Made by a program: the position numbers and the translations under genes. 64,000 bases of DNA from positions 1,240,001-1,304,000 of the forward strand of contig NZ_JAIQXE010000001.1 in the NCBI RefSeq assembly GCF_020076305.1. Reading direction: 5' to 3'. The stretch's first letter is position 1, and each line of letters opens with the position of its first letter. Shown here one piece after another: positions 2,617-47,836 of this stretch. Source of the stretch: Flavihumibacter profundi. GTDB lineage: Bacteria; Bacteroidota; Bacteroidia; Chitinophagales; Chitinophagaceae. The notes beneath the pieces are model-generated. The model had not been told where the DNA came from and searched no databases. It was given only the letters and a program-made list of their open reading frames with translations.

Positions 2617-5600
2617 TTATTTTACGCTAACCAACACATTAATTTTTCCAATTCCATTACCGGAAAAATCCTGCAAGGCCTTACCCAATACCTGTCCAAC
2701 CCTCACTTTATCCGGATCTGCTTTCATCGCAACTCCGGAAAGAGAAGAAGTAACCAACAAATCACCTCTCTTTATAGCACCACCTTCAAGGCAAACTTTA
2801 GTAGGGATAACACCTATTACACCCATTGGAACACCATTGTCCAGGGCACTATTTACTGCATCTTCTTCTGTAAGTAAGAGCCCGGGTTTGGTGGCATAAA
2901 CACCTGCAACAAGAGTCGAATATGGTCCGGAAGATTTTACAACCTGGCGATCAGCATCAGTTGAAATTTCCAATACATCACCTGGCTCATAACCAGCTAA
3001 AGCACCCTGTACGCCAAAGAATTCAGCAACATCAGCACCATTGTTCTGGGTACCGCCATTAAAAAATGCCTTTCCGGTCCTATCAATCCTTGCTACATTG
3101 GATAAGCCCACCTTAAAAATTGCGAGGTTACCAGTTCCGGCTGCCTCAAGTCTTGCTACAAAAGCAGTTCCTGTGGTACCGCCATCTGTATTTGATTCAG
3201 CAAGCACACCAATACCTGAAGGTGAATTACCACGTACCCCGGCATAATTCCCATAGTTCGTACCTGCAATCGCACCCGCAATATCACTGATGGTTTGACC
3301 GGTTACACCTTCCCCACCCCCTACATGAACACCATACAAACCTGCCCCTGAAATATCGTTTGCAACACCAAATACACCAGTTCCTTTTATGCTGGAAGCA
3401 CTTATAGCGTTATATTGTTCATTGGTTACCAATAAAGCATCACTTCCGTTTGCTGCATTGGTAATATCAAAGAATCCGGCAGTTCCACTGGTGCTTGAAC
3501 CATAAACCCCATAAACATTTTCACTGAAACCACTAATTCCATATCCATTCACAGAATAGCCTGACACACCCGGTCCATTAACAGAAGTACCATTTACTCC
3601 GGTTCCGGAACCATTGTGCTTTCCCCAAACACCATATCCATTGGCAGTTGCTGCATTAATAACACCATAAACACCAATTGCACTTGCAGCAGGAGCAGCA
3701 GCAGTAATTCTTCCTGCAACTCCGGTAGCGCCTGCACCAGGTGAGCTATTTGAGCCAGCAAGTGCGGTACCAAAATCAGTATTGGTCAATCCGAACATAT
3801 CACTGGTTGTTGCTATACTAGCGGTAAATGGAAAAGTGAGTCCGCCACCACCTGTATTATCAGCAGCTGGCGCCCATTGTGTACCATTGTATTTAAGAAC
3901 CTGTCCGCTTGCTGGAACAGTAGCACTTAATGCCACACCATTTAATTTACCGATAACGGGGTTGGGATATGTTCCACTTAGATCCCCTCCGGCTGCGCCA
4001 GAAGGAGAAAATATGGTAGGTATAACACCAGGGGCCAGTTTTGCAGCAGTAATAGAGGCATCTGCTACTTTAGTAGTAGTGATGGCATTTGCAGCAATCG
4101 TTGGGTTAGGGTAAGTTCCGGTCAGGTCACCACCAGCTGCACCGCTAGCAGGTAAGCTGGTTGGGATAACACCCGGGGCCAGTTTAACCGCAGTAATAGA
4201 GGCGTCGGCTACTTTAGTGGTAGTAACTGCATTATCTGCAATTTTAGCATTGGTTACTGCAAGCGCATTCAGTTTTATTGTAGTTATTGCATTATCGGCA
4301 ATTTTAGTCGTATTTACAGCATTTGCACCAATTGTCGGATTAGGGTAAGTCCCGGTCAGGTCACCACCTGCTGCACCGCTAGCCGGAAGACTGGTCGGAA
4401 TAACGCCAGGAGCCAGTTTAGCCGCAGTAATAGAGGCGTCGGCTACTTTAGTAGTAGTGATCGCATTTGCACCAATTGTTGGATTAGGATAGGTACCTGT
4501 TAGGTCACCACCAGCGGTACCGTTAATTGGTAAGCTGGTTGGAATAACACCAGGAGCAAGCTTTGCCGCAGTAATAGAGGCATCAGCCACTTTGGTAGTA
4601 GTGATAGCATTATCGGCCACTTTAGCATTTGTAACTGCGTTAGCACCAATCGTTGGGTTAGGGTAAGTTCCGGTCAGGTCACCACCTGCAGCACCGCTTG
4701 CAGGTAAACTGGTTGGGATAACGCCCGGAGCCAGTTTAACCGCAGTAATAGAGGCGTCGGCTACTTTAGTGGTAGTAACTGCATTATCTGCAATTTTAGC
4801 ATTGGTTACTGCAAGCGCATTCAGTTTTGTTGTAGTTATTGCATTATCGGCAATTTTAGTCGTATTTACAGCATTTGCACCAATCGACGGATTAGGGTAA
4901 GTCCCGGTCAGATCACCACCTGCTGCACCGCTAGCCGGAAGACTGGTCGGAATAACGCCAGGAGCCAGTTTAGCCGCAGTAATAGAGGCGTCGGCTACTT
5001 TGGTAGTAGTGATCGCATTTGCACTAATTGTTGGATTAGGATAGGTACCTGTTAGGTCACCACCTGCTGTTCCACTTACCGGAATAGAAGTTGGAATAAC
5101 CCCGGGAGCAAGCTTCGCAGCTGTTATAGATGCGTCAGCCACTTTAGTGGTAGTAATCGCATTATCTGCAACTTTGGCATTAGTAACAGCAAGCCCATTC
5201 AATTTCGTGGTAGTAATTGAATTATCAGCAATTTCAGCTGTACTAACAGCATTTGCAGCAATAGTTGGATTTGGATAGGTTCCGGTAAGATCACCACCTG
5301 CAGTACCGCTAACAGGTAAAGAAGTCGGGATAACACCTGGAGCAAGTTTTGCCGCTGTAATAGCCCCATCTGCTACTTTAGTAGTGGTAATAGCATTAAC
5401 CCCAATTGTCGGATTTGGAAATGTTCCGGTCAGGTCACCACCCGCTGTGCCACTAACCGGCAGACTGGTTGGGATAACACCAGGGGCTAATTTGGATGCA
5501 GTAATTGATCCATCAGCAATTTTTGCCGTAATAACTGCATTATCAGCCAGTTTTGAACTATTTACAGCATTTGCACCTATTGAGGGGTTTGGGTAGGTAC

Positions 5601-6363
5601 CAATTAAATCCCCTCCAGCTGTTCCACTAACAGGCAAACTGGTGGGAATAACACCCGGAGCTAATTTGGCTGCGGTAATTGATGCATCAGCTACTTTTGA
5701 AGTAGTCACAGCATTATCAGCTAGTTTAGTATTATTCACTGCATTGTCTGCAATTTTTGAAGTATTAATAGCATTTCCAGCAATAATTGGATTCGGGTAA
5801 GTTCCGGAAAGATCTCCACCTGCCGTACCACTAATTGGGATTGATGTTGGAATTACTCCTGGCGCCAGCTTTGAAGCTGTAATTGCCCCGTCTTTGATAG
5901 TTGGATTAGGGAAATTACCACTTAAATCGCCACCAGCTTGTCCTACTGGTGAAGCAGATTCGGCCCTAAATGCGAACGGAACGCTGGTTAATGGCGAAGC
6001 ACCTAAAAAACTGAATTGTGTGCCACCTTTAGGATCCATTTCAACTTCCAGGAACTTTGCAATTCCATTGGCCCAGTTTACCCCCGAAAGACTACCGGAA
6101 ACAGCAGTTGCCCCATCACTACCAATGGCAGTTGCAAAAAGCCCAAACTGATTGGTTTGAACACTACGGGTTTCCTGATACATTACGGTGCCGGATGCAC
6201 TGGACTCCCGTATTGTTAAACGAAGGGAGAGGGACTGATTGGCTAAAGCCGTCCCATAAGCGTTTCTGGCAATTCCCTGGTAATTAATTTGTTTTGGCAC
6301 CTGTGCCATGAGAGAACTGCATAAAAACAGGCCTACCACAAATGGCATAACTTGTTTTATCAT
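2617..6363 (-). CDS. Large secreted repeat protein with 12 AGGDL/YPNP units (tail-fibre-like or adhesin-like)
   Basis: A 1248-residue exported protein. Residues 1-20 form a signal peptide. Residues about 22-130 are a domain common at the N-terminus of Bacteroidota surface proteins (INYQGIARNAYG, NQFGLFATAIG, SVPFAFRAES). Residues about 141-800 hold 12 units beginning AGGDL, most followed by GTYPNP and 11 of them by KLAPGVIPT, with variable numbers of short (S/A)ITTTKVAD-type subunits between. Residues about 830-1080 are GVxG-rich and look like a beta-solenoid. The end (about 1110-1248, starting GADVAEFFGV) resembles the terminal domain of phage fibres and bacterial fibre-like proteins. Neighbours are T9SS-type secreted proteins in the same operon. 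A surface or adhesive role is inference. Internal DNA duplication is noted separately. Confidence 0.88.
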   Translation of the reverse strand: MIKQVMPFVVGLFLCSSLMAQVPKQINYQGIARNAYGTALANQSLSLRLTIRESSASGTVMYQETRSVQTNQFGLFATAIGSDGATAVSGSLSGVNWANGIAKFLEVEMDPKGGTQFSFLGASPLTSVPFAFRAESASPVGQAGGDLSGNFPNPTIKDGAITASKLAPGVIPTSIPISGTAGGDLSGTYPNPIIAGNAINTSKIADNAVNNTKLADNAVTTSKVADASITAAKLAPGVIPTSLPVSGTAGGDLIGTYPNPSIGANAVNSSKLADNAVITAKIADGSITASKLAPGVIPTSLPVSGTAGGDLTGTFPNPTIGVNAITTTKVADGAITAAKLAPGVIPTSLPVSGTAGGDLTGTYPNPTIAANAVSTAEIADNSITTTKLNGLAVTNAKVADNAITTTKVADASITAAKLAPGVIPTSIPVSGTAGGDLTGTYPNPTISANAITTTKVADASITAAKLAPGVIPTSLPASGAAGGDLTGTYPNPSIGANAVNTTKIADNAITTTKLNALAVTNAKIADNAVTTTKVADASITAVKLAPGVIPTSLPASGAAGGDLTGTYPNPTIGANAVTNAKVADNAITTTKVADASITAAKLAPGVIPTSLPINGTAGGDLTGTYPNPTIGANAITTTKVADASITAAKLAPGVIPTSLPASGAAGGDLTGTYPNPTIGANAVNTTKIADNAITTIKLNALAVTNAKIADNAVTTTKVADASITAVKLAPGVIPTSLPASGAAGGDLTGTYPNPTIAANAITTTKVADASITAAKLAPGVIPTIFSPSGAAGGDLSGTYPNPVIGKLNGVALSATVPASGQVLKYNGTQWAPAADNTGGGGLTFPFTASIATTSDMFGLTNTDFGTALAGSNSSPGAGATGVAGRITAAAPAASAIGVYGVINAATANGYGVWGKHNGSGTGVNGTSVNGPGVSGYSVNGYGISGFSENVYGVYGSSTSGTAGFFDITNAANGSDALLVTNEQYNAISASSIKGTGVFGVANDISGAGLYGVHVGGGEGVTGQTISDIAGAIAGTNYGNYAGVRGNSPSGIGVLAESNTDGGTTGTAFVARLEAAGTGNLAIFKVGLSNVARIDRTGKAFFNGGTQNNGADVAEFFGVQGALAGYEPGDVLEISTDADRQVVKSSGPYSTLVAGVYATKPGLLLTEEDAVNSALDNGVPMGVIGVIPTKVCLEGGAIKRGDLLVTSSLSGVAMKADPDKVRVGQVLGKALQDFSGNGIGKINVLVSVK
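4181..5062 (-). repeat. Recent 552-base tandem duplication inside the repeat-protein gene
   Basis: Bases 4181-4510 recur almost unchanged at 4733-5062, an offset of 552 bases (184 codons, in frame). Similarity fades outside this span. The other AGGDL units are more diverged, so this pair is the youngest duplication in the array. Confidence 0.8.
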
Positions 6364-9345: not shown

Positions 9346-9555
9346 TTACTTTTTCGGTGCTTCAACCTGGGCTTTTACAGTATCAACAGCAGCCTTTGCA
9401 GTTGAATCGATAGTTGCTTTTGCACTGTCAACAGTAGCAGTAACAGCAGAATCAACTGCAGCTACAGTAGAATCAGCAGTAGCTTCAGTAGTTTCAGCAG
9501 CATTGTTACAAGCTGCGAATGCGCCAATAACCAGAACAAAAAGGAGCTTTTTCAT
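9346..9555 (-). CDS. Small Ala-rich lipoprotein
   Basis: A 69-residue protein with a signal peptide and a lipobox (GAFAAC, lipidated Cys16). The mature part is a low-complexity run of A, T, V, D and K with recurring VDSA/VDT units and no aromatic residues, like a short amphipathic helix in the style of small envelope lipoproteins such as Lpp. It ends in a lysine-containing tail (APKK). It is a single-gene unit followed by two hairpins, which suggests an abundant, stable transcript. It is divergent from the sigma factor gene at 9694. The antisense frame over the same bases is a shadow. The function, perhaps envelope tethering, is inference. Confidence 0.8.
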   Translation of the reverse strand: MKKLLFVLVIGAFAACNNAAETTEATADSTVAAVDSAVTATVDSAKATIDSTAKAAVDTVKAQVEAPKK

Positions 9556-9693
9556 TTGATCTCTTTTAAATTTTTTGAATGAATGATTTGGTATTTATAC
9601 TATAATCAGAAAAAGGTAACCCTCACATTAATTTATTTTTTTGCCGGGCTTTCCGGGTTACTATTTGTTATTTTGGGTATTAAATAAAGCAGC

Positions 9694-10263
9694 GTGACGA
9701 CAGATCCATTTGAAAAAACATTGCTGAAAGGATTGGCAGAGAATGACCGGAGGGCAACTGAAACCATATACAAAGACAATTATCCTATGGTTCAATCGCT
9801 GATTATTAATAACAATGGAAGTGTAGATGACGCCAGAGATATTTTCCAGGAAGCGATGCTCGTTTTGTATGAAAAAGCAAAGTCAGAAAAATTCGAACTG
9901 AGCTGCCAAATAAAAACATATTTATATTCTGTATCCAGAAGACTGTGGCTCAAGCGTTTACAACAATTACAGAAGTATTCATCTGAAGTAGAGGGCTTTG
10001 CTGAAGTTGTTCCAGTTGAGGACGAACTGGAATTACATGAAATGAAAAATATGGAATTCCAGGTAATGGAAAAAGCAATGATGGGATTAGGTGAACCCTG
10101 CAGAAGTTTATTGGAAGCCTATTATTTGCAGAAAAGAAGCATGATTGAAATAGCTGGTAATTTTGGCTATACTAATGCAGATAATGCGAAGAACCAGAAG
10201 TATAAATGCCTGACCCGATTGAAAAAACTGTTTTTTGCTCAATATAAAAACCAGGTAATATGA
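9694..10263 (+). CDS. ECF-type RNA polymerase sigma factor
   Basis: A 189-residue sigma-70 family protein. The sigma-2 region is about residues 20-90 (DDARDIFQEAMLVLYEKA, then IKTYLYSVSRRLWLKRL). The sigma-4 region is about 120-180 (EPCRSLLEAYYLQKRSMIEIAGNFG, with a helix-turn-helix ending NAKNQKYKCLTRLKKLF). No sigma-3 domain is present, as in ECF factors. The start is GTG at 9694; no ATG upstream fits. It overlaps by 4 bases (ATGA) the next gene, a membrane protein with a putative anti-sigma-like N-terminus and a protease domain, so it is probably held inactive by that partner. Target promoters are unknown. Confidence 0.9.
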   Translation: MTTDPFEKTLLKGLAENDRRATETIYKDNYPMVQSLIINNNGSVDDARDIFQEAMLVLYEKAKSEKFELSCQIKTYLYSVSRRLWLKRLQQLQKYSSEVEGFAEVVPVEDELELHEMKNMEFQVMEKAMMGLGEPCRSLLEAYYLQKRSMIEIAGNFGYTNADNAKNQKYKCLTRLKKLFFAQYKNQVI

Positions 10264-11357
10264 ACGACGATGTACAAATTTTGGAAGCTGTGGAAAGATA
10301 TATCCTGGGTGAAATGAATATTCAGGAAAAGGAATATTTTGAGCAATTGCGCAGAACAAACCCGGAAATCGACCAACTTGTTGTTGAGCATGCTATTTTT
10401 TTACAGCAGCTAACGCATTTCGGCGAAAGGAAGTCTATTAAGGGTTTATTACACGAAACCCATAACCATCTTATAAATACTGGCGAGATCAAAGATGTAA
10501 TGCCTAAAATCCGGGTTTTACAACAGGTAAATAAGTATAAAAAGGTTTTTGCTATGGCAGCGTCAATTGCCGGACTAACTGCTTTGGCGATCAGTGGCCT
10601 TGTTGCTTTCCTGAGTCCGAAAAGCAGTCCTCATGAAATTGCTCTGCTTAAAAAAGAGATCAATGCAGTAAAAATATCCCAAAAACAAACCCAAAAGGAA
10701 ATTAGTTCGTTTAAATCAATACCTAGTAAGCCAGATGCACCTGGTAAATTTGGTGGAACCGGATTTTTAATTGACGGTAAAGGTTATCTCGTAACATCAG
10801 CCCATGTAATTTCAAAAGCCGATTCCATTTATATTATTAATAATAAAGGAGAATATTTTAAGGCAAAGACAATGCTTGTCAACGATAATACCGATATCGC
10901 CATACTCAAAATTGACGACAACCGCTTTGTTCCTGTTGACCATTTACCATACGGCATCCGTAATGGAAAGGCTGAACTGGGGGAGCAAATATTTACGCTT
11001 GGATTCCCTCGTACAGAAATTGTGTACAATGAAGGTTATCTTAGTGCTAAAACGGGATTTGATGGTGATACAATTACGTACCAGATTGCAATTTCAGCAA
11101 ATCCAGGTAACTCAGGTGGTCCAATCTTTAACCATGCAGGAGAAGTAATTGGTGTTTTAAGCGGAAAACAACTGACTGCAGAAGGCGTTGTATTCAGTAG
11201 CCAGAGTAAAAATATCTTCGCCGCCCTCGATTCTTTAAAAGTTGATAGTTCGCTATACAGCCTCAAAGTGCCTACCCGTTCCAGTGTAAAAGGCATTGAT
11301 CGTGTACAGCAAATTAAAAAGATTGAAGATTGTATTTACAACGTGATGACTTACTAA
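10260..11357 (+). CDS. Membrane-anchored trypsin-like protease with anti-sigma-like N-terminus
   Basis: A 365-residue protein. Residues 1-90 are cytoplasmic, helical and resemble the N-terminus of Bacteroidota anti-sigma factors (AVERYILGEMNIQEKEYFEQL); no zinc motif H-x3-C-x2-C is present. A single membrane helix lies at about 96-119, followed by a short coiled coil (125-150). Residues 163-330 are an HtrA/DegP-like trypsin domain with His182 (TSAHV), Asp212 (NDNTDIAIL) and Ser285 (NPGNSGGP), all three catalytic residues intact. No PDZ domain follows. The gene overlaps the ECF sigma gene by 4 bases. I infer that it holds the sigma factor at the membrane while its periplasmic part senses or cuts damaged protein; the anti-sigma activity itself is not shown. 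Confidence 0.85.
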   Translation: MNDDVQILEAVERYILGEMNIQEKEYFEQLRRTNPEIDQLVVEHAIFLQQLTHFGERKSIKGLLHETHNHLINTGEIKDVMPKIRVLQQVNKYKKVFAMAASIAGLTALAISGLVAFLSPKSSPHEIALLKKEINAVKISQKQTQKEISSFKSIPSKPDAPGKFGGTGFLIDGKGYLVTSAHVISKADSIYIINNKGEYFKAKTMLVNDNTDIAILKIDDNRFVPVDHLPYGIRNGKAELGEQIFTLGFPRTEIVYNEGYLSAKTGFDGDTITYQIAISANPGNSGGPIFNHAGEVIGVLSGKQLTAEGVVFSSQSKNIFAALDSLKVDSSLYSLKVPTRSSVKGIDRVQQIKKIEDCIYNVMTY

Positions 11358-11406: not shown

Positions 11407-12309
11407 CTATGAAACCCATAGGTTTTGTGGATACTCACCCTTTTCAACCAGTGCATCTAGGCTTGCCTGCACACTTGGAGCGTCTTCCTTATAAGTCACA
11501 CCAAACCAGTTTGATGATGTAGGTATAACCGGTATTACACCCAAGCCTGATTTAGTAAATTTGTCTGCGACAATCGGTATAAAAAACTCGGATTTGGGGT
11601 TATTTGCATTTTCCTTCAAAAAAGCATCAAACATTTCCTGGCTAACCGCAAAAACCGAAGGATGAAAACACCAGAAATTCATGGATACACTTGATTTTAA
11701 CGGCAATACCTTGGGCTCCAGGTTGTCATCGCACTGGATTTGTCCATCCTTTAATGAAATATTCAGCCTTTCTGCTATGGATTCAAGATTTCCTTTACTG
11801 TCCACCTGGCAAACCCCTCTGTTTACGGTTCCATGCTCAGAAAGTGTTTTTAATAATTCATATCCAATGATCGCATAGGTTTTTTCATTACAATCTCGAA
11901 CTAGGAACCTATAAGCCTGCTCAAAAGCATCCCGACCATAAAAATCGTCTGCATTGATTACGGCGAATGGTTCATTCACTGCAGTTTTTGCACAGAGTAC
12001 TGCATGGGCTGTTCCCCAGGGCTTAGTTCGGTCTGCAGGAACTGGGGCACCATTTAAGAATGCATTCAGGTCCTGAAACACATAATCAACCCTTACCCTG
12101 CCCTGCAATTTTTCCCCAAAAATTTCCCTGAAGTCCTGCTCAAATTCCTTTCTGATAATAAATACTACTTTTCCAAAGCCGGCACGGATAGCATCATAAA
12201 TTGAATATTCCATGATTGTTTCTCCACTCGGTCCAAATGATTGGATCTGCTTAAGACTCCCATACCGGGAAGCCATTCCCGCAGCCAGTATCACAAGTGT
12301 TGGTTGCAT
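11407..12309 (-). CDS. Sugar-phosphate nucleotidyltransferase family protein
   Basis: A 300-residue protein when started at the ATG at 12309; the open frame continues 25 codons further upstream but that extension has no domain. The N-terminal segment LVILAAGMASRYGSLKQIQSFGPSGE is split here as VILAAGMASRYG, then KQ, the nucleotide-binding signature of NTP-transferases. NADDFYG is the metal-binding acidic motif. Such enzymes join a nucleoside triphosphate to a sugar-1-phosphate. The sugar and nucleotide cannot be read from the sequence. It is divergent from the PLP enzyme at 12351 with 41 bases between them, and no glycan cluster is adjacent. Confidence 0.85.
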   Translation of the reverse strand: MQPTLVILAAGMASRYGSLKQIQSFGPSGETIMEYSIYDAIRAGFGKVVFIIRKEFEQDFREIFGEKLQGRVRVDYVFQDLNAFLNGAPVPADRTKPWGTAHAVLCAKTAVNEPFAVINADDFYGRDAFEQAYRFLVRDCNEKTYAIIGYELLKTLSEHGTVNRGVCQVDSKGNLESIAERLNISLKDGQIQCDDNLEPKVLPLKSSVSMNFWCFHPSVFAVSQEMFDAFLKENANNPKSEFFIPIVADKFTKSGLGVIPVIPTSSNWFGVTYKEDAPSVQASLDALVEKGEYPQNLWVS

Positions 12310-12314
12310 TCTTC

Positions 12315-12322
12315 TATTTTTG
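12315..12322 (+). promoter_or_regulatory. TAnnTTTG box before the PLP enzyme gene
   Basis: TATTTTTG, ending 28 bases before the ATG at 12351. No convincing upstream TTTG element. It overlaps the divergent gene boundary. Confidence 0.45.
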
Positions 12323-12350
12323 TTTAAAACACGAATATAAATATTCCGAT

Positions 12351-13253
12351 ATGAATTTACCGGTAACAAACAATATGGCAACAATGCAACCGGTTGAGTT
12401 TTTCCGGAAACAACGGATACAGGTTGATTTATTGCGGCTGGATAAAATCCATACGGTTATTTCCGGTAATAAATGGTATAAGCTAAAGGAATGGTTGAAA
12501 ATAGCTATAGAGCAAAGAAAAGAAGGGGTATTTACAGCAGGCGGAGCATATTCTAACCATATTGTTGCAACCGCATGTGCAGCCCAATACGCCGGATTGA
12601 AAAGTGCCGCGATAATCCGGGGAGAACAGGGAGAAAAACAAAGCAAAACTCTGGCTGATGCACGTTCTTATGGAATGGAATTGCACTTTTTCTCAAGGAA
12701 AGATTATGGCTTGTTGAAAACCGGTTTGGAAAATTCCGGACTTATACCTGCTAACTGGCTGGCAATCCCGGAAGGAGGACAAGGGCAGCCCGGCGTTTTG
12801 GGTGCTTCTTCAATTCTTGATATTGTGCCCTCATTGCATGACTACAGCCATATTATTTGTGCAGTTGGAACAGGCACAATGCTTGCTGGCCTTACAAATG
12901 CAGCATTTGGGCATCAAAAATTAATAGGCATCAGCAGTTTAAAAGGGGATGACAACCTCACTAGTGAAATTAAAAAATGGCAAAACGAAAATGCAGCCCC
13001 TTTTAGCCTGCTTTATGATTATCATTTTGGCGGTTACGCTAAACACCCCCCCTCCCTTCTCAATTTCATGAACGAACTGTACCGCATAACCGAAATACCC
13101 ACTGATATTGTTTATACCGGTAAAATGCTGTTCGGCCTTCAAGACCTGGTTAAAAAGGGCCATTTTCAGGATTCCGACAAAGTATTAGCCATTCATAGTG
13201 GTGGGCTTCAGGGTAACCGTTCGTTAAATTCCGGCCAATTGATTTTTTTATAA
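12351..13253 (+). CDS. D-cysteine desulfhydrase / ACC deaminase family PLP enzyme
   Basis: A 300-residue fold-type II PLP enzyme. SGNKWYKLKEWL (about 40-51) holds the PLP lysine, GGAYSNHIVATA is the phosphate/substrate loop with the conserved SNH, and GTGTMLAGL is the glycine-rich PLP-phosphate loop. The family includes D-cysteine desulfhydrase and 1-aminocyclopropane-1-carboxylate deaminase; which substrate is used here is not resolved, and D-cysteine is the more usual assignment in bacteria without plant contact. The ATG at 12351 is chosen over an earlier frame start because the extension overlaps the divergent gene. The start of the next gene lies about 34 bases downstream. Confidence 0.85.
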   Translation: MNLPVTNNMATMQPVEFFRKQRIQVDLLRLDKIHTVISGNKWYKLKEWLKIAIEQRKEGVFTAGGAYSNHIVATACAAQYAGLKSAAIIRGEQGEKQSKTLADARSYGMELHFFSRKDYGLLKTGLENSGLIPANWLAIPEGGQGQPGVLGASSILDIVPSLHDYSHIICAVGTGTMLAGLTNAAFGHQKLIGISSLKGDDNLTSEIKKWQNENAAPFSLLYDYHFGGYAKHPPSLLNFMNELYRITEIPTDIVYTGKMLFGLQDLVKKGHFQDSDKVLAIHSGGLQGNRSLNSGQLIFL

Positions 13254-46354: not shown

Positions 46355-47836
46355 TTACAGACCAAATCCATAGTAAAAAGAACCTTGAACTCCGGGATAA
46401 ATACCTTCTAACAATACACCACCTTTCTTGTTTTTCAGTTCCTGAAGAAACTCGCTCGTATTATTGACCGGCTTACTATTAATTTTTGTGATCACAAACC
46501 CTTCCTGCATATTGGTTTGCCTGGAAATAGATCCTTTTGAGATTTTTGAAACCAAAACCCCACCACTTATTTTCAAACTCTTTAATTCTTCAGGGGATAG
46601 ATTTTCAATTTCTATACCCAGGGTTTTTAAAATCTCCGCACCATATTCCTGTTGAACCTGGGTTTCCTGCGCCGGCTTTAAAGTGACTGTAATTGCCTTT
46701 TGCACCCCACCCCTTATGATAGTAAGTACCAGCTTTTCACCAGGTTTTTGCCTTGCAATATATTCCCTGAATTGCGGTACAGTTTCAATATTATAGGCAT
46801 TCACTTTAATGATAACATCTTTTGGCAGTATTCCGGCTTCCATTGCTGCACTACCCTTCTGAATGCTATCCACTAATACACCGGCAGAAGCAGTTATACC
46901 AAGCTCTTTTGCTTTATCCCCATTCATATCACTAATAATAACACCAAGGTAACCACGGGATACTTTTCCATAGCGCAGGATATCATCAATTACTTTCTTG
47001 ACCATTTCAACGGGAATGGCAAAGGAATACCCTGCATAAGCACCTGTCGGAGTTGCAATGGCAGAATTAATCCCGATCAGCTTACCTTCTATATCAACGA
47101 GGGCGCCCCCACTATTTCCCTGGTTAACTGCAGCATCCGTCTGGATATATGATTCAACAGCATATCTTTCAGTAAGCAGGTTAATATTCCTAGCTTTTGC
47201 GCTAACTATACCCGCTGTAACAGTGGATGCCAGGTTAAAAGGGTTCCCTACCGCCAGTACCATATCGCCCACCTCAACTGAATCTGAATTACCAAATTGG
47301 ATAAACGCCAGCCTTTCTGCATCAATTTTGACCAGTGCCAGATCAGTTGCAGGGTCTTTACCCACAAGTTTTGCAATGTAGCTTCGGCCATCATGTAAAA
47401 CAACTTCTATTTTTTGGGCTTCATTGACGACATGGTTGTTTGTAACAATATAACCGTCATCACTGACAATAACACCAGATGCGCTGCCATACATTACTTT
47501 AGGGGCATTCCCTTCCGGGAGCGATATCCTGCCAAAAAAATCATCATTAAAGAAATCATCAAAATAATCGGGGAGTCCATTCCTTTCAACAGCAGGATAA
47601 ACAGACTTAATATGCACAACCCCAGGTGTAGCTTTCCTTGCGGCATACCGAAAATTAAAACCGGGTTTCTCAGCAGCAACCCCTTCATTTTGGGTTGTAC
47701 CCAATGCTATTTTTTGCTTTTCCTCAAAAGTGGTTTTCTTTTCCACCACAACAGGTACCGGGCTCCTCTTCTCCTGTCCGCGGCACCCCGGAAAAAGCAG
47801 TATGGAAAGCCCAATAAGTACAATATATTGTTTCAT
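46355..47836 (-). CDS. DegP/HtrA-type serine protease, lipoprotein
   Basis: A 493-residue periplasmic protease. The signal peptide ends in a lipobox (LLFPGC, Cys18), which is unusual because most HtrA proteins are soluble or anchored by a helix. The trypsin-like domain has His135 (VTNNHVV), Asp165 (ATDLALVK) and Ser242 (QGNSGG), all intact. PDZ1 (about 270-375) begins GYLGVIISDMNG; PDZ2 (about 390-490) is degenerate but present. It degrades or refolds damaged envelope proteins. It lies convergent with the CheB-kinase gene and faces hsp20 upstream; a shared stress control is possible but not shown. Confidence 0.93.
   Translation of the reverse strand: MKQYIVLIGLSILLFPGCRGQEKRSPVPVVVEKKTTFEEKQKIALGTTQNEGVAAEKPGFNFRYAARKATPGVVHIKSVYPAVERNGLPDYFDDFFNDDFFGRISLPEGNAPKVMYGSASGVIVSDDGYIVTNNHVVNEAQKIEVVLHDGRSYIAKLVGKDPATDLALVKIDAERLAFIQFGNSDSVEVGDMVLAVGNPFNLASTVTAGIVSAKARNINLLTERYAVESYIQTDAAVNQGNSGGALVDIEGKLIGINSAIATPTGAYAGYSFAIPVEMVKKVIDDILRYGKVSRGYLGVIISDMNGDKAKELGITASAGVLVDSIQKGSAAMEAGILPKDVIIKVNAYNIETVPQFREYIARQKPGEKLVLTIIRGGVQKAITVTLKPAQETQVQQEYGAEILKTLGIEIENLSPEELKSLKISGGVLVSKISKGSISRQTNMQEGFVITKINSKPVNNTSEFLQELKNKKGGVLLEGIYPGVQGSFYYGFGL

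Follow-up and report, generated by a model that had tools for sequence, protein, structure and literature searches.

An ECF sigma factor gene paired with the gene of a putative membrane anti-sigma factor carrying an HtrA-like protease domain in Chitinophagaceae

In the genomic region of Flavihumibacter profundi analyzed here (64,000 nts, hereafter called the window), two overlapping genes were found that probably form an autoregulated module of an ECF sigma factor and its anti-sigma factor; the latter would be a membrane protein whose N-terminus lies inside the cell and whose ectodomain is an HtrA-like protease. We assign a probability of roughly 70% to this reading. As a whole, the system is real and conserved, the anti-sigma function of its second member is likely, and the pair can most likely be placed among the variants of proteolysis-controlled ECF systems. 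Judging from the genomes compared, the sigma factor, the protease-bearing brake, a tiny lipoprotein and a shared promoter region appear to stay together across the family and in relatives beyond it.

The first gene of the pair (9694..10263, + strand) begins with a GTG codon and encodes a product of 189 aa. It was matched by the Pfam family Sigma70_r2 (PF04542) with 31.7 bits at a cut-off of 24 and by the full-length ECF-type profile TIGR02937 with 65.4 bits at a cut-off of 42.9, and its product is classified as an ECF sigma factor by both profiles. The solved chains nearest to it, searched with a profile of 7 sequences, include SigW, SigH, SigL and SigE. The second gene (10260..11357, + strand, ATG start) encodes a protein of 365 aa and overlaps the sigma gene by 4 bp (ATGA), just as a preliminary description of this DNA had reported with correct coordinates and overlap. 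Because the gene 3' of it (11407-12384) is convergent, the operon consists of these two genes.

The same description had given the 365-aa protein a helical N-terminus, a single membrane helix and a trypsin-like domain with no PDZ, and Pfam, hydropathy and AlphaFold2 agree on this architecture. The putative anti-sigma domain (residues 1-75; 10260..10484, + strand) is predicted to consist of four helices (2-16, 21-33, 35-55 and 58-74) and has no zinc motif. It is followed by the single membrane helix (residues 96-120 by hydropathy, 94-118 in the model; 10545..10619, + strand) and by a predicted stalk helix between the membrane and the protease domain (residues 124-149; 10629..10706, + strand), the latter being variable among homologues (mean pairwise identity of 0.216 over columns 119-160). 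In the AlphaFold2 model of the window protein alone (22 sequences, mean pLDDT 76, pTM 0.55), the remainder is a beta-rich protease domain with a C-terminal strand at 359-364. Exactly one hydrophobic stretch was observed in all 103 nonredundant homologues, and in 101 of them lysine and arginine are more numerous before than after the membrane segment, which places the N-terminus inside the cell.

The trypsin/HtrA-like domain (residues 166-365; 10755..11354, + strand) was matched by Trypsin_2 (E 3.2e-22, residues 166-299) and also by Trypsin in Pfam. His182, Asp212 and Ser285, described earlier as intact, occur in the window protein and are shared by all 121 homologues aligned, and the solved relatives nearest to the domain, among the best 60 of 133, are the catalytic domains of DegP-like MucD, HtrA1, HhoA, DegS and DegP. 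By these features it is assigned as an S1C-like catalytic domain with a His-Asp-Ser triad, as in HtrA and DegS. A PDZ domain gave no Pfam match at E up to 1, and the same test was positive for another HtrA in the window; for lack of a C-terminal PDZ domain, the protein is not classed as DegS. The profile of the MarP family (NCBIfam NF033740) covers residues 85-325 with 62.9 bits, below its cut-off of 250. The PADLOC hits (RT-Protease, PDC-M35A and HamA) fall on the trypsin domain, and we read them as resemblance of this one domain and nothing more. Strong conservation continues past the catalytic domain into the last 19 residues of the protein (11298-11354, DRVQQIKKIEDCIYNVMTY), which close with a predicted strand; Gln351 is present in 117 and Val or Ile at position 362 in 120 of the 121 homologues. 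Two further proteins of the window may be mentioned here: the separate HtrA-like protease (46355-47836), which has 493 aa, a lipobox-like N-terminus and PDZ domains, and a 1248-aa protein of degenerate repeats (2617-6363, VADASITAAKLAPGVIPTSLPVSGTAGGDLTGTYPNPTI) with DNA periods of 144 and 174 bp.

Conservation of the gene pair in related genomes was one of two points on which the preliminary description had staked its idea, and the pair was found to be kept. Among 39 relatives, the whole-length protein is present in 23 genomes (one copy is interrupted by a run of N), and the sigma gene lies immediately upstream on the same strand in 23/23, at a gap of -4 to +49 bp. A profile survey of the family revealed matches at E 1e-30 or better in 186 of 195 Chitinophagaceae genomes, including 163/167 good-quality genomes and 99/101 genera. 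All but two of the matches listed in this survey begin at profile position 1-3, the exceptions among them being G181 (from position 70) and G155 (from position 73). The 137 loci retrieved contain 129 full-length copies, of which 128 have the sigma gene directly upstream and the lone exception (L129) starts at a contig end; once redundancy was removed, 103 pairs remained, in which the gap ranges from -8 to +49 bp.

When the search was widened to 149 genomes of the class, 29 matches were obtained at E 1e-40 or better. Twenty-one of these extend into the N-terminal part (17 genomes from seven other families and 4 from the own family), and eight cover the protease part alone. The sigma gene is directly upstream in all 19 newly added full-length loci (17 from other families and 2 from the own family). 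At loci L223-L226 the match is confined to the protease region, and no sigma gene was found within the stretch examined; in 15 genomes that belong to the same order but to other families, no full-length copy was detected with a single-sequence query. The pair is thus almost ubiquitous in Chitinophagaceae and scattered across the class, and such conservation places it beyond chance. The hosts of the system are soil and water Bacteroidota.

Upstream of the sigma gene lies a putative autopromoter of the operon, GGGTTAC-N15-GTATTAA (9655..9683, + strand), and a divergent copy, GGGTTAC-N15-GTATAAA, is located at 9594..9622 on the - strand. The motif occurs twice in the window, with 0.03 occurrences expected. 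In autoregulated ECF operons, the sigma gene is preceded by a -35/-10-like pair with ECF spacing. Allowing at most one mismatch, the autopromoter was found in 102 of the 103 loci (88 without mismatch), with a spacer of 15 in 81 loci and of 16 in 21; the sigma frame of the 103rd locus (L052) is broken, with an exact site farther upstream, which brings the count to 103/103. None of 515 shuffled upstream regions (spacer 15 only) contained a site with fewer than three mismatches. In the class survey, 17 of 19 loci carry the autopromoter with at most one mismatch. It is very probable, as far as promoter recognition can be read from such patterns, that the sigma factor drives GGGTTAC/GTATTAA promoters. 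This near-invariant ECF-type autopromoter with a spacer of N15/16, together with its divergent copy in front of a lipoprotein gene, is new in this analysis.

In 99/103 loci, the end of the -10-like box lies 9-17 nt ahead of the start codon, and the sigma start codon is GTG in 93, TTG in 8 and ATG in 1 of the 103. Since the start usually lies about 10 nt after the box, an almost leaderless sigma mRNA is to be expected. If starts of this kind are weak, they could hold the sigma factor below its inhibitor. In some loci the box ends merely 2-3 nt before the assigned sigma start.

The divergent copy precedes a gene for a small Ala/Thr/Asp/Ser-rich lipoprotein of 69 aa (9346..9555, - strand) with a lipobox-like FAACN and a C-terminal KK. 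With at most one mismatch, the divergent site is present in 98 of the 103 loci, and in 94 of these 98 it is followed within 60 nt by the start of a complete ATG frame with 40 codons or more. Each of the 94 frames has a lipobox-like motif and is A/T/D/K/S-rich, with 52-93 residues; the C-terminal residue is lysine in 77 and histidine in 9. In the class survey, 15 of 19 loci have a small lipoprotein-like frame behind a divergent site with two mismatches or fewer, and the lipoproteins end in lysine in 5/15, histidine in 5/15 and other residues in 5/15, so that a C-terminal lysine is not a general feature. The divergent promoter pair and the lipoprotein, which the preliminary description had missed, are the strongest sign that we are dealing with one regulatory module. 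The short lysine-ended lipoprotein of the family recalls Braun's lipoprotein, and by analogy it is possible that it serves as a tether made on demand, a reading that is weakened beyond the family by the differing ends in the class survey.

Further candidate targets were predicted from the motif. In 15 genomes of the genus, 30 exact sites were detected in 14 genomes (reversed pattern, 0), preceding the sigma gene (14 sites), the lipoprotein (6), an AMPK-type glycogen-binding-like/helix-hairpin-helix protein (9) and a small secreted protein (1). In the AMPK-like/helix-hairpin-helix protein (L138:826-1452), HHH_5 scores above and AMPK1_CBM below the Pfam cut-off; it stands behind the motif in nine Flavihumibacter genomes (L138 and eight homologues). 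The 60 family genomes contain 86 exact sites in 51 genomes versus 12 for the reversed pattern; part of the 86 were assigned to a gene, and some, such as L183 and L194, may be due to chance. Outside the genus, the long protein is replaced by a 96-aa AMPK1_CBM protein (above the cut-off in three of four scanned), which is present in 13 of the 60 genomes and has the motif with at most one mismatch within 400 nt on the same strand in 8 of these 13 (opposite reading, 0).

The small secreted-looking protein (L143:976-1419, 147 aa) had no Pfam match. It has a one-mismatch site in the window's genome, and in three genomes exact sites lie before its relatives at L175, L177 and L200 (BLAST E 7e-39, 1e-4 and 4e-6 against the own-genome copy); a search of 40 genomes revealed a site at only two of six homologues. 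When the spacer was left free between 14 and 18, the own genome had 5 exact sites versus 1 for the reversed pattern, and those with spacers 14 and 18 (L140 and L139, respectively) stand in unlikely places and were dismissed as chance. With one mismatch allowed, the reversed control gave about as many sites in the own genome as the motif itself (10 against 9), and one-mismatch sites were therefore trusted only if common to homologous genes. Taken together, these counts predict a small regulon.

The central question is whether the N-terminus acts on the sigma factor. We consider it highly probable that it is an anti-sigma domain, and its binding to the sigma factor is well supported, not proven. 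The preliminary description had proposed this function, which is now favored by the conservation of the pair, a fused structural model, co-divergence with the sigma factor and a likeness to zf-HC2, although proof is not thereby given; gene order and the overlap with the sigma gene are a further line. The divergence of the N-terminus tracks the sigma factor more closely than it tracks the protease domain of its own chain. In distance matrices of 121 pairs, r is 0.897 for N-terminus and sigma factor, 0.865 for sigma factor and protease domain, and 0.822 for N-terminus and its own protease domain. The partial correlations are 0.65 for N-terminus and sigma factor given the protease, 0.51 for sigma factor and protease given the N-terminus, and 0.21 for N-terminus and protease given the sigma factor, and the value of 0.65 exceeded that of 0.51 in 98% of 300 half-samples. 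This comparison was used in place of mean-field DCA, which was too shallow to interpret (121 pairs, ~90 effective sequences): z over 3 was reached by 1.5% of sigma-N-terminus, 0.9% of sigma-protease and 1.4% of N-terminus-protease pairs, and the top hits mix all three kinds.

A model of the sigma factor together with the N-terminus was obtained from a read-through of the in-frame neighbor genes of L117, one stop codon being read as glycine, with an alignment of 56 rows (L117 and 55 others). It reached a mean pLDDT of 89.9 (88.5-89.9 over the five models) and a pTM of 0.84. Block means of the N-terminus are 93-98 (residues 8-77) with the sigma factor versus 61-88 (residues 1-80) in the window protein without it, a comparison in which both the alignment rows (56 vs 22) and the query proteins differ and which covers the cognate pair only. 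The contact put forward in the preliminary description thus gains a confident fused model carrying no interface score, and this model supports the contact, short of proof.

Comparisons of sequence families point in the same direction with less force. Six of 23 homologous N-termini match zf-HC2 (best E 0.00039) and six of 23 match the unrelated helical family Hemerythrin (best E 0.005), so that the zf-HC2 score taken alone is weak, and the window protein itself has no match to an anti-sigma family in Pfam. When nine Flavihumibacter genomes were scanned for zf-HC2 at E 0.01, four proteins were matched: the G003 homologue of the 365-aa protein, a membrane protein of 187 aa, a FecR and a zf-HC2/HEAT protein. 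The gene of each (4/4) directly follows a sigma gene; Pfam served to assign sigma, FecR and HEAT. The genus homologue is borderline: against the zf-HC2 cut-off of 22.2, L013 scores 22.2 as an open frame, 20.9 with hmmscan and 18.1 as a whole protein. Comparison of the N-terminal profile with two anti-sigma proteins of the genus gave weak similarities, with E 0.00074 and a probability of 26% for the HEAT protein and E 0.024 and 2% for the FecR (sigma profile control, E 0.34). The HxxxCxxC zinc motif was found in 0/103 homologues, which does not exclude class I membership because ~44% of the members lack it according to the available part of PMC7406223. By sequence, the N-terminal profile found no solved anti-sigma structure in the PDB; the matches obtained (a designed coiled coil at E 0.0063, another at 0.026, PPAR chains at 0.07 or worse) look like chance helices. 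No paralogue of the N-terminus was found in the window's genome, where the profile retrieved itself and one match at E 0.10; the latter was rejected, as no sigma gene is among the listed frames around it.

Two other roles of the N-terminus have to be weighed against these data. The protein may have no anti-sigma function at all, the sigma factor being coupled to a membrane quality-control protease that it induces and the N-terminus being an anchor or dimerization domain. The protease, in the same operon behind the autopromoter, would indeed be an obvious target of the sigma factor, and the N-terminus yields weak similarity at most by sequence. However, there is no reason for a mere anchor to follow the sigma factor more closely than its own chain, nor to gain model confidence in the presence of the sigma factor; moreover, the zf-HC2-like matches of the genus are all in sigma-adjacent proteins, and the operon, bounded by a convergent gene, has no other candidate inhibitor. 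We therefore regard this explanation as improbable. FecR proteins are common sigma regulators in Bacteroidota, and the N-terminus could, as in some FecR proteins, both hold and activate the sigma factor in the manner of pro-sigma control, proteolysis then freeing a fragment needed for activity. The weak zf-HC2-like N-terminal motif common to the protein and the FecR of the genus would fit such control, but the ectodomain has no FecR domain in Pfam and, by eye, no neighboring listed frame resembles a TonB receptor, which makes this the least probable of the readings considered here.

According to the anti-sigma reading, the following mechanism can be proposed. In unstressed cells, the N-terminal four-helix domain would tether the sigma factor to the membrane. 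Under envelope stress, the trypsin-like domain would be engaged and activated, probably by misfolded or misrouted envelope proteins, and would cut the stalk in its own chain or in a neighboring one. An RseP-like M50 protease would then cut in the membrane and free the sigma factor, and the latter would transcribe its own operon, the divergent small lipoprotein gene and a few others, such as the AMPK-type glycogen-binding protein and perhaps the small secreted protein. Envelope stress is suggested as the signal by the place of the protease and of the lipoprotein. An M50 homologue is present in the genome (PF02163, E 2.9e-53, 455-codon frame); its support is weak because 14/14 control genomes have one too.

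Who makes the first cut is the least certain step. As the triad in the ectodomain of this putative anti-sigma factor never varies, self-cleavage is the simplest reading, and we infer a compact envelope-stress device with the site-1 protease in the same chain; in our view, there is a little less than an even chance that site-1 cleavage is carried out by the protease domain on its own kind. The domain might instead be a sensor only, in which binding of a substrate or ligand shifts the conformation or exposes the stalk to another site-1 protease and catalysis serves quality control. The catalytic domain is homologous to those of DegP, DegS and HtrA, the accessible part of PMC12203970 presents the S1C-like domain of RsgI9 (Clostridium thermocellum) as a binding module, and the separate PDZ-bearing HtrA at 46355-47836 could cut in trans and may make the first cut instead. 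A triad invariant in 121/121 homologues would be needless for a pure sensor, yet catalysis for quality control would keep it too, and we hold the sensor reading to be possible but rather doubtful. Equally doubtful is the most far-reaching form of the self-cleavage reading, in which three genes would form a self-contained device doing the work of RpoE-RseA-DegS in Chitinophagaceae and several other families. Here, one self-cutting chain would be anti-sigma factor, sensor and site-1 protease, and the lipoprotein would be either the main envelope product (perhaps an Lpp-like tether) or a feedback signal on the protease. Its odds were slightly lowered because only 5/15 lipoproteins of the class survey end in lysine.

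Class I anti-sigma domains (ASDI) have been classified in PMC7406223, which, in the part available, places them near only 6% of Bacteroidetes ECFs. For one of the others, a single operon now offers a conserved partner together with a proposed mechanism, a promoter motif that is defined and a predicted regulon of small size. The promoter motif permits candidate targets to be listed in many genomes. If the site-1 protease indeed acts on its own chain, the first step of regulated proteolysis and the brake would be merged into one protein, and the activation of an HtrA domain could be studied in an exceptionally simple setting.

Among the matches listed in a literature search (titles and abstract starts), there was no Bacteroidota ECF anti-sigma factor with a trypsin-like ectodomain and no GGGTTAC/GTATTAA promoter; the main ECF re-classification (NAR 2021) may list the group. 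The word trypsin is absent from the main text of PMC7406223 and from PMC8999054 and PMC8103513, in the portions accessible. Variants of regulated intramembrane proteolysis are described in PMC10202637, as far as that text was available.

With regard to known families, the protein resembles MarP in being a membrane-anchored trypsin-like protease without being a member by score. MarP proteases are not known to have an anti-sigma domain or a sigma partner. Like the ASDI group, as characterized in the available text, it has a short N-terminal domain, predicted to be helical, encoded beside an ECF sigma factor and further domains conserved within the group; it differs in lacking the zinc motif and in scoring at or below the Pfam cut-off. 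One of the two closest precedents is RpoE/RseA/DegS/RseP of E. coli, which also comprises an ECF sigma factor, a membrane-anchored cytoplasmic anti-sigma domain (putative in the present case) and a periplasmic HtrA-type protease, with an RseP homologue of the M50 family in the genome. The E. coli RpoE operon likewise stands behind its own promoter. In contrast to that system, the putative anti-sigma domain and the protease are here in one chain with no PDZ, and the two-gene operon has no third regulator and follows the promoter-like GGGTTAC/GTATTAA pair. The preliminary statement that classical systems keep the anti-sigma factor and the site-1 protease separate is fair, but self-cleaving anti-sigma factors have been published: according to the available part of PMC12203970, RsgI anti-sigma factors cleave themselves, and RsgI9 has an S1C peptidase-like ectodomain able to bind cellulose. 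Like SigI/RsgI in that account, the other of the two closest precedents, the present system would have a membrane anti-sigma factor that supplies its own first cleavage, with RseP providing the second. RsgI9 differs in belonging to a SigI-type sigma factor of Clostridium and in that its autocleavage is carried out by a separate periplasmic domain, whereas here a protease with an invariant triad is the only predicted ectodomain besides the stalk.
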